Of a stretch of 41,930 bases of DNA, positions 5,327 to 21,866 are shown in pieces. Source of the DNA: Nitrosospira sp. (lineage in GTDB: Bacteria > Pseudomonadota > Gammaproteobacteria > Burkholderiales > Nitrosomonadaceae); the NCBI GenBank assembly GCA_026399575.1, contig JAPLQS010000008.1, positions 1 to 41,930 of the forward strand, read 5' to 3'. Under the pieces are notes generated by a model. That model worked only from the letters and a program-made list of their open reading frames with translations, was not told the origin of the DNA and searched no databases. Position numbers and translations under genes: made by a program. The number at the start of each line of letters is the position of its first letter. Position 1 is the first letter of the stretch.

Positions 5327-6277
5327 ATGTCTGTTTTTACCACTGTCACCCAAGAGCAGCTTTCTACCTGGTTGAGAAACTATTCCCTCGGTACGCTGCT
5401 TGATCTGCAGGGAATCTCCTCAGGTATCGAGAATACCAATTATTTTGTTACCACCAGTCACGGGAAATATGTTCTTACCCTGTTTGAAAAGCTGACTGCA
5501 TCCGAACTGCCCTACTACCTCAACCTGATGGCGCATTTGTCACGCCACGGCATTCCCTGCCCCAGCCCGGTAGCCAATATCGACAACAGATTTCTTGGCG
5601 AGCTGAACGGTAAACCGGCGAGCATCGTTACCTGCCTGCCGGGAAAATCACAGGAACATCCCACCCCCGCGCATTGTGCCGAAGTCGGCGCGTTGCTGGC
5701 AGACATGCACTTGTCCGGTCTGTCTTATCCCGGAAAAATGGAGAATCCACGCGGGCCGAAATGGTGGAAAACCATCGCGCCTGATGTCATGCCCTTTCTT
5801 GCGGCAGAGGAAGCGGAGATGCTCAAGGAGGAGCTGCGTTTTCAGTCCGCATACCATTTTGAAGATCTGCCGCGTGGCGTGATTCACGCAGATCTGTTCC
5901 GTGACAATGTATTATTCGTTGATGGCGCCATCGGTGGCGTGATCGATTTTTATTTCGCTTGCAATGATGTGTTGCTGTTTGATCTTGCCATTGCTGCCAA
6001 TGATTGGTGTCTGACGGAAAGTTGCGAACTGGATGAGGCGCGTCTATCATCCCTGATCGCAGCTTATCATCGCACCCGTCCGCTTGCCGCCATTGAACGC
6101 GATGCCTGGCCGGTGATGCTGCGCGCCGGGGCTTTACGCTTCTGGATGTCGCGGCTGTATGATTGCCATTTGCCGCGCATGGGAGAGCTGACTCATGTCA
6201 AGGACCCGGCCCATTTCGGGCGCATACTGAAAAATCATTCGACATCCTGCTTCGAGCTGGCACAGATCTGGATTTAG
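5327..6277 (+). CDS. thrB: Homoserine kinase (ThrB, APH-like type)
   Basis: This enzyme phosphorylates L-homoserine with ATP, the step before threonine synthase. The 316-aa protein is of the aminoglycoside-phosphotransferase fold used by many proteobacteria, not the GHMP-kinase ThrB of enterics. It has the N-terminal [12 protein letters not shown] region, the Brenner motif [10 protein letters not shown] (H187, D189, N194) and the Mg-binding acid in GVIDFYFA (D207). Length is typical. The Shine-Dalgarno is weak. Its stop codon abuts exactly the left end of the inverted-repeat element at 6278-6550, which may therefore shape the mRNA 3' end. Confidence 0.95.
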
Positions 6278-6550
6278 GGAACCACTGAACCAGTCCTCCG
6301 TGGAGCGCGTTGCAGGTAAAATCGGGATGATTGCAAGGCGCGCGACGTAGGTCGTAGCTGACCTACGAGGCCAAGGAGCGCAACGCAGCAAGCGCCAGAT
6401 TTTGCCGCAACCCTAGGGGGACGGGGCTTTGCAGGCGGTCTGCGGTGTCAGGCTCGTAGCGAAGGGAATGGCCATTCGCGTTCTCGCCTTTCGTGCATTC
6501 CATCCCGCAAAGCCGCCGTCGCGCCCGCGTGGGACTGGTTCAGTGGTTCC
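6278..6550. mobile_element. 273-bp MITE-like element with perfect 19-bp terminal inverted repeats
   Basis: The left end (6278-6296, GGAACCACTGAACCAGTCC) and right end (6532-6550) are perfect reverse complements. Inside are nested hairpins, for example CGTAGGTC/GACCTACG and the 12-bp palindrome GAATGGCCATTC, plus GGCTTTGC paired with GCAAAGCC. No ORF of note is inside. TTA occurs on both flanks (one base away on the left), compatible with a short target duplication but too short to prove one. It fills most of the 337 bp between thrB and the next gene. It fits a non-autonomous miniature transposon or a large palindromic extragenic repeat. No transposase is in the window, so mobility is inferred. 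Confidence 0.6.
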
Positions 6551-6614
6551 TTAAGCAGCAGATCGCCGGAGCAGGAACGGACGGCGAGTATTCGCCCTAT
6601 TGGAGATACGAAAA

Positions 6615-7337
6615 ATGGAAGCCAGGCAAGTTAATGCGAAGCAAGGATGGCAATGGATCGTGAACGGTTTCTACCTGTTTCTAAAAGCCCCGCTGGCCTG
6701 GATGCTGCTGTGTACTACCTTGCTGCTGATCGCAGCCACGTTGGCACTGATTCCGATGGTGGGACAGTTTTTTTTCACGTTGCTTTCACCATTATTCCTG
6801 GCCGGGTTGATGATGGGGTGCAGGGCGCTGGAGCGAGGTGAGAAACTGGAGATTGCCTATTTGTTTGCAGGTTTCAGGAAAAATCCCGTTCCGCTGATCA
6901 CCGTGGGAGGAGTTTATCTGGTGGGGCAGGTGCTGATCCTGGGCGTGGCCATGCTGCTCGGAGGCAGTGTGATGATGGATTTGCTGATGAACGGGAAAAG
7001 AGTCGATGAGAATGAGTTGAGGGGTGTCATGAGCAGCGGTCTTACTGCCATGATGGTAGCACTGGCGCTGTCCATCCCGCTGATGATGGCGGCCTGGTTT
7101 GCGCCATTGCTGGTGGCATTCAAAGAGATGCCCGCACTGGCTGCGATGCAGCTAAGTTTTCTTGCCTGTCTGAAGAACATCATACCGCTGCAGCTTTACA
7201 CCATCACGATGGTAGTACTGGCGGTGATTGCCGCAATGCCCTACGGTCTGGGATTCTTCGTGCTGGTACCGGCACTGTTCGCTTCACTCTACGCGAGCTA
7301 TGAGGATATCTTTGTGGATACAGTCGAGCCGACATAA
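6615..7337 (+). CDS. BPSS1780-like integral membrane protein of unknown function
   Basis: A 240-aa hydrophobic protein. Predicted membrane segments lie roughly at residues 17-45, 47-70, 90-118, 140-170 and 185-230 (five or six helices). The N-terminal MEARQVNAKQGWQWIVNGF and the GFRKNPVPL loop resemble the BPSS1780 family seen in beta- and gammaproteobacteria, for which no function is known. The start is the ATG at 6615, preceded by GGAGA; a TTG 15 bp upstream is a weaker choice. It runs convergently into uvrD with a 30-bp gap and no evident terminator. No partner genes suggest a role. Confidence 0.78.
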   Translation: MEARQVNAKQGWQWIVNGFYLFLKAPLAWMLLCTTLLLIAATLALIPMVGQFFFTLLSPLFLAGLMMGCRALERGEKLEIAYLFAGFRKNPVPLITVGGVYLVGQVLILGVAMLLGGSVMMDLLMNGKRVDENELRGVMSSGLTAMMVALALSIPLMMAAWFAPLLVAFKEMPALAAMQLSFLACLKNIIPLQLYTITMVVLAVIAAMPYGLGFFVLVPALFASLYASYEDIFVDTVEPT

Positions 7338-21594: not shown

Positions 21595-21866
21595 ATTTCA
21601 TTGTTGCAGGGACTTGTTCAGCGATCCCCTGACCACGTTGCTTTAATGGGGACTTACTCAGAGCTTTTCTCAAGCTTCACACCAGATTCACCTTCTTTAC
21701 CCCACTACTCCTCCAGTTTCGCCTGCAATACCTCACAAAGTGATAAGTTACATTCAGTTCTTCGTCTATCCCATTTATTTCTATAAGATATTTATTTGAA
21801 CCAGAAATCTTCTCCGGTTTCTTCTTTAAGTCTTTGTCGTATAAACAAAAACCCCTGATTTTTCAC
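21595..21866 (+). other. AT-rich non-coding region between rnpB and the dcw promoter
   Basis: These 272 bp contain no supportable gene. The open frame at 21601-21786 has low-complexity, serine-rich content and no ribosome-binding site. GC is visibly lower than in the flanks, especially around 21770-21860. A weak stem CAGGGA/TCCCCTG occurs just after rnpB without a U-tract. The region may hold the rnpB 3' end and upstream activating sequence for the dcw promoter, but nothing specific was recognised. Confidence 0.4.

Follow-up and report, generated by a model that had tools for sequence, protein, structure and literature searches.

ERIC, RUP, NEMIS and Correia sequences are MITE-like palindromic repeats of intergenic regions with a possible influence on mRNA ends, and in their own ends, sizes and host groups they differ from the element described here. 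Closer in form are the prokaryotic MITEs QMITE2 and Chunjie, which, according to the accessible text of PMC10969869, are short and combine terminal inverted repeats (TIRs) and direct repeats with a stable predicted fold; MITEs are described there as typically AT-rich. The relevant insertion sequences (ISs) are those of the IS5 group of the IS5 family (NCBIfam NF033581, transpos_IS5_4), which are 1.17 kb long, encode a DDE transposase, start with GGAA in their TIRs and duplicate a 4-bp YTAR target, the motif given for IS5 in the accessible text of PMC10359306. The element studied here lies at positions 6278-6550 of the window, by which we mean the whole 41,930-nucleotide stretch of Nitrosospira DNA that was analysed. 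It resembles the IS5 group in its GGAA-starting TIRs and YTAR duplications but lacks the transposase, and it shares with QMITE2 and Chunjie the short length, TIRs, direct repeats and stable predicted fold. Unlike the typical MITEs of that account, it is rich in GC (63%; the window has 56%), and paired changes appear to have maintained its fold across an order of bacteria. We consider it, with a probability of about 93%, to be a non-autonomous IS5-group MITE that is moved by an IS5 transposase and whose palindromic arms have a conserved pairing. A previous reading of the DNA from its letters alone (the sequence-only reading) had left the family unnamed; the YTAR target together with the GGAANNNCTGAA-like ends now allows its placement in the IS5 group. 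The features of the locus are as follows:

5327-6277, plus strand: upstream gene with a Pfam APH match (thrB in the sequence-only reading), whose frame stops at the insertion
6274-6277, plus strand: left copy of the target duplication, TTAG, which includes the stop TAG of the upstream gene and is one base off the right copy
6278-6550, plus strand: copy of the proposed IS5-group MITE, 273 bp, delimited by own-genome copies and by empty sites in relatives
6278-6296, plus strand: left TIR, 19 bp, GGAACCACTGAACCAGTCC, a perfect match to the right end
6278-6308, plus strand: 5' side of the predicted outer stem, pairing with 6521-6550 (10 of the 29 pairs of this helix 1 changed on both sides)
6309-6411, plus strand: internal palindromic arm 1, from fold and covariation; sister-genus copies have a module of about 150 bp near element position 112
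6412-6419, plus strand: two-pair hairpin CCTAGGGG at the arm junction, from fold, covariation and the folds of distant copies
6420-6520, plus strand: internal palindromic arm 2, from fold and covariation; sister-genus copies have a related module near element position 192
6521-6550, plus strand: 3' side of the outer stem, from fold and covariation counts
6532-6550, minus strand: right TIR, 19 bp, a perfect match to the left end
6551-6554, plus strand: right copy of the target duplication, TTAA (the seven empty sites have TTAA once, in G002, TTGA four times and GTGA twice)

Several features seen in the sequence-only reading, namely perfect 19-bp ends, nested internal palindromes, the lack of an ORF and a left end on the base after the stop codon, are reproduced here, the coordinates being exact. 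The 19-bp end pattern, with up to 3 mismatches allowed, occurs three times in the window, a number reached in 0 of 100 shuffles (mean 0, largest 0). A solitary degenerate end, GGGATCGCTGAACAAGTCC, lies at 21610-21628 on the minus strand and is possibly a relic. When extended, the inverted repeat spans 6274-6303 and 6525-6554 at 87%, because the flanks, TTAG/TTAA, are nearly self-complementary. The predicted RNA fold of the element has an energy of -151.4 kcal/mol; shuffled sequences average -110.0, which gives a z of -7.75, and the opposite strand folded with DNA parameters gives a z of -6.5. Five ORFs of at least 30 aa overlap the element, and the only one wholly inside it, of 46 aa on the minus strand, is not convincing; thus the element contains no transposase gene. 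The suggestion that it could end the thrB mRNA found no support: a scan of 5900-6900 for intrinsic terminators (a GC stem followed by a T run) recovered a sole site at 5925-5940 and none in the element, and the Rfam covariance models gave no match in 6000-6900 at E-values up to 1.

The element is mobile and dispersed, and has empty sites. The draft of its own genome (2.09 Mb, 93 contigs) contains 19 matches: 10 over positions 1-273 (81-100% identity, the window copy included), 2 halves, which represent a single copy on contig C63 that a 126-bp insert interrupts, and 7 fragments. The wider search recovered a match in 20 of 61 genomes and 6 of 28 genera, so that the copies which the sequence-only reading proposed to seek exist both at home and in relatives; the plasmid collection had no match to the element. 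The eight own copies that were compared differ pairwise by 3% or more, and therefore no fresh burst is visible. By a crude ORF test, 0 of 11 own copies lie inside an ORF of at least 100 aa, one of them (L005) having no ORF on its right. Inserts of 126 and 102 bp, at element positions 52 and 56 respectively, occur in an own-genome copy (L086:963-1088) and in one from the relative G001 (L146, contig C18), and are unlike the sister-genus module described below. A MAG labelled Gynuella sp. contains elements of 262-277 bp (L133, L135, L136) whose 19-bp ends are nearly identical to those of the window element and whose flanks match exactly (CTAG or TTAA). Their interiors have no blastn match to the window element at an E-value of 1, and they would thus represent similar ends on a different body.

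The copies are flanked by YTAR-like tetranucleotides, CTAA/CTAA and TTAG/TTAG being common, and in this they have the 4-bp YTAR target of the IS5 group. Across genomes we tabulated 53 insertion rows, merging those with the same flanks and dropping copies that lack an end (a wrong join gave L137 a second entry): the flanking bases are identical on both sides at all four positions in 19, at three in 12, at two in 14, at one in 7 and at none in 1. Hence 22 of the 53 rows match at two or fewer target bases, a few of them since the called end is one base off. In the window the upstream frame, which belongs to the Pfam APH kinase family, ends with a TAG at 6275-6277 and the element begins on the next base; the gene is probably thrB, as the APH-type kinase match fits this assignment. 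The downstream gene is present in all nine same-genus genomes, the own one included, and in seven of the eight relatives the element is missing between the two genes, which provides the empty sites that had been suggested as a check. The eighth relative, G001, has only a 37-bp end remnant, of the right-end type though it adjoins the upstream gene, which we interpret as the trace of an ancient insertion, either inverted later or opposite in orientation from the start, most of which was then deleted. The original target was probably the TTAA with which the upstream gene ended; as only one of the seven empty sites has TTAA, this assignment is drawn mainly from the right-hand copy in the window. 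We propose that duplication of this target restored the stop codon and so left the upstream gene intact. Specific targeting of stop codons was considered and set aside: in 14 of the 53 insertion rows the site coincides with the stop codon of an open frame at least 80 codons long, which is no clear excess over control intergenic YTAR sites (flanks, 47 of 267; window, 6 of 27), and the stop codon at this site is therefore explained by the YTAR target.

The strongest candidate for an autonomous partner comes from genome G244. Its IS (locus L248) is 1170 bp long and reads TTAG, GGAACCCCTGAACAAGTC and onwards to a second TTAG, and the MITE copy of the same genome (L243) likewise reads TTAG, GGAACCCCTGAACAAGTC and onwards to TTAG; the end bases of the two are alike at 18/18 and 17/18 positions and both have the TTAG flanks. 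The transposase of this IS scores 323.7 bits against the NF033581 cut-off of 140. Comparable elements were recovered from other genomes: 1) in G127 an IS of 1171 bp, with exact CTAA, CTAG or TTAG duplications at all six loci where ends were found and a transposase above the NF033581 cut-off; 2) in G049 an IS of 1174 bp (GGAACCCCTGAACAAGTT) with flanks CTAG/CAAG, and in G041 one of 1174 bp with an exact CTAG duplication, the transposases of both (L112 and L119) being above the same cut-off; and 3) in G036 an IS of 1197 bp flanked by CTAA/CTAA and in G015 one of 1210 bp flanked by CTAA/CTAG. Among the 20 MITE-bearing genomes, 7 have an NF033581 match above the cut-off and 10 have no match at all. 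Among 30 loci from the NF033581 search, GGAA ends with YTAR flanks were found at 7, all in G127 and G244, and IS and MITE ends were both found in G244 only. These counts are to be read with the fact that end-finding missed most loci, GGAA ends with YTAR-like flanks being found at 3 of 32 (L095-L126), 5 of 32 and 7 of 30 in three rounds; in the second round L109 and L173 are one place, as are L112 and L168, and L119 and L169.

The sequence-only reading had also proposed a search for a transposase with matching ends. G244 supplies one, while the search of the own draft recovered only stubs, which match at 14-15 of 18 end bases, and no IS5-group IS in complete form. These stubs are the contig ends C48, C55 and C93, which enter an IS starting with GGAAACACCGAATAAGTC, with flanks TTAA, TTAT and TTAG and a protein start MKQITLAA; the stub end is as in GGAACCACTGAACAAGTC, the end of other own copies, at 15 of 18 bases and as in the window copy at 14 of 18. 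In G007 the homologous 72-residue start matches NF033581 at 1e-11, below the whole-protein cut-off. Five own contigs in all (C48, C55, C93, C41 and C62; L198-L202) break in an IS5-group-like IS with ends GGAAACACCGAA(T/C)AAGT, and our guess is that C41 and C62 carry the other end of the contig-end IS. A search of the own draft with the protein P0001 gave no match. Two own transposases, on C17 (402 aa) and C31 (466 aa), both PF01609, were rejected as helpers as their ends differ. Derivation of the MITE by deletion of an IS interior was likewise rejected, as its interior has no similarity to the two IS5 elements compared.

The non-autonomous, MITE-like character suggested by the sequence-only reading is thus borne out by the copies, by the empty sites and the target duplications, and, in the one genome G244, by an autonomous partner whose ends match. 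From the dispersal, the end structure, the target duplications, the empty sites and the occurrence of a matching-end IS5 element beside the MITE in G244, we infer that an IS5 transposase moves the MITE in trans. In the proposed mechanism, the IS5-family DDE transposase would be made by a full IS elsewhere in the cell, would bind the GGAANNNCTGAA-like ends of the MITE and would move it into a YTAR tetranucleotide, whose 4 bp would be duplicated. At the window site the TTAA terminating the upstream gene would probably have been the target, and its duplication would have rebuilt the stop codon.

To survey the order we used a covariance model (R1) of the right half only, built from 24 elements with 138 positions and 33 pairs, the E-values of which are rough. 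At an E-value of 1e-5 or better it matched 47 of 250 genomes (the own one included) and 28 of 121 genera, counts per genome being lower bounds, as no more than 13 candidates in each were scored. Among 19 loci from this search, 12 have GGAA- or GGAG-type ends, lengths of 270-328 bp and flanks ranging from exact to poor duplications; the script found no ends at the remaining seven, and re-inspection showed an end in two of these. One genome, G155 (L239 and others), has at least 13 R1 matches, and among the matches listed 8 of 13 lie at contig starts; these may be near-identical recent copies.

The fold is conserved over comparable distances. In 35 elements 92.6% of 3468 cells pair, and 34 of 100 pairs have changes on both sides, against 5-17 in slid controls. 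A distant copy from a Rhodocyclales MAG (L131), 69% identical over the element, and one from a Betaproteobacteria MAG (L132), 73% identical over the right half only, have the same plan (fold z of -15.0 and -11.8). Of 99 pairs compared between the genus consensus and L131, 13 had undergone a Watson-Crick double change, and the comparison with the BP_23 copies gave the same number; the slid controls had 0-2 in both. Broken pairs numbered 22 and 16 respectively, and 38-42 and 31-38 in the slid controls; 10 and 11 of the 13 double changes fall within the internal arms. The consensus sequences of genus 1 and genus 2 differ by only 2 double changes and 7 broken pairs. In a test for clustering, a possible sign of template switching, the double changes form 3 and 4 adjacent pairs (permutation p of 0.20 and 0.06). 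Relatedness of the copies inflates the covariation counts, and the use of one member's RNA fold as the structure gives an advantage to consensus columns with G·T. On these comparisons, the long palindromes that form the internal arms appear to have had their pairing maintained by paired base changes across an order of bacteria.

Such paired changes would also be expected if the body of the MITE were a selected RNA, for instance a small RNA or a processed hairpin, dispersed by IS5 ends, and the two-sided changes in the internal arms and the architecture shared by L131 and L132 speak for this. On a transcribed strand under selection more G·U than A·C is expected, and the raw stem cells do show 231 G·T against 127 A·C. 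Yet G·T occurs in 47 and A·C in 44 of the 100 stem columns, and once the 6 columns with a majority of mismatches are removed the cells number 108 and 100; the similar column counts favour upkeep of the palindrome at the DNA level over selection on one RNA strand. Moreover, both the bias of the RNA-derived structure towards G·T columns and the inflation of the covariation counts weaken the case for an RNA. We accordingly regard a selected RNA body as unlikely. Template switching can create and maintain hairpins, according to the accessible text of PMC8794818. Hence the fold is most likely kept at the DNA level, by strand-switch correction in replication or by selection on the folded DNA strand, an explanation that is favoured rather than proved, and upkeep by selection on an RNA is the less likely one.

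The arms also accommodate additional hairpin-rich modules. Of 15 loci chosen for inserts, 13 are from the sister genus, with modules of about 110-180 bp near element positions 112 and 192 (e.g. L081:1057-1206, about 150 bp). The intervening stretch has been shortened or has given way to other sequence in six of the module-bearing sister-genus loci; L083 carries a tandem pair of modules. Among the matches listed, all 15 inserts at the two sites match the first. The module is present in 12 of the 61 genomes, 10 of them from the sister genus (G009, G012, G015, G018, G021, G024, G027, G030, G033 and G035), and in 0 of 9 of the own genus. It also occurs outside the MITE: L218-L221 have no MITE match and no matching TIR, and L222 has weak matches only; as judged by eye, a different palindrome is centred on the module in L218, L219, L221 and L222. 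Tandem module copies were seen in G012 and at L220.

Two further explanations fare worse. Membership in a large family of REP/BIME-like palindromes whose mobility depends on a REP-associated tyrosine transposase rather than on IS5 would agree with a repeated, palindromic element of which 0 of 11 own copies lie inside an ORF of at least 100 aa, but is very improbable given the 18-19 bp TIRs, the YTAR duplications and the ends in common with an IS5 element. A fixed structured RNA or a terminator of the upstream gene, for which the strong fold, the position directly behind the gene and the covariation in the stems might be cited, is scarcely credible and as the primary identity is refuted by the empty sites in seven of eight relatives, which with the dispersed copies contradict the single-copy feature fixed in all relatives that the sequence-only reading had linked to it, and the negative Rfam and terminator searches and the other end type beside the gene in G001 also oppose it.

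The non-autonomous IS5-group MITE is therefore the reading that we retain, and it is a new family of a known kind, whose conserved fold and modules set it apart from a routine repeat. Titles and abstract openings in the literature, and a text search for six end sequences, yielded no description of this MITE family, and the analysis showed no host function for it. More tentatively, it may be a long-lived lineage, in which a folded DNA chassis (the outer stem, two arms and the tiny junction hairpin) would have persisted over a betaproteobacterial order while its terminal repeats changed to suit the IS5 at hand. Its arm hairpin modules would be interchangeable and also be used inside another palindromic repeat, and the fold, held at the DNA level, would either aid transposition or be repaired by replication. 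The contig starts in G155 and the own contigs ending in an IS5-group IS suggest that such elements also bear on assembly breaks. Thus, what had been an unnamed repeat becomes a defined and testable IS5/MITE pair, in which the fold of the MITE appears to be maintained over an order, and such elements would be well suited to testing whether selection or replication-linked correction preserves palindromes.
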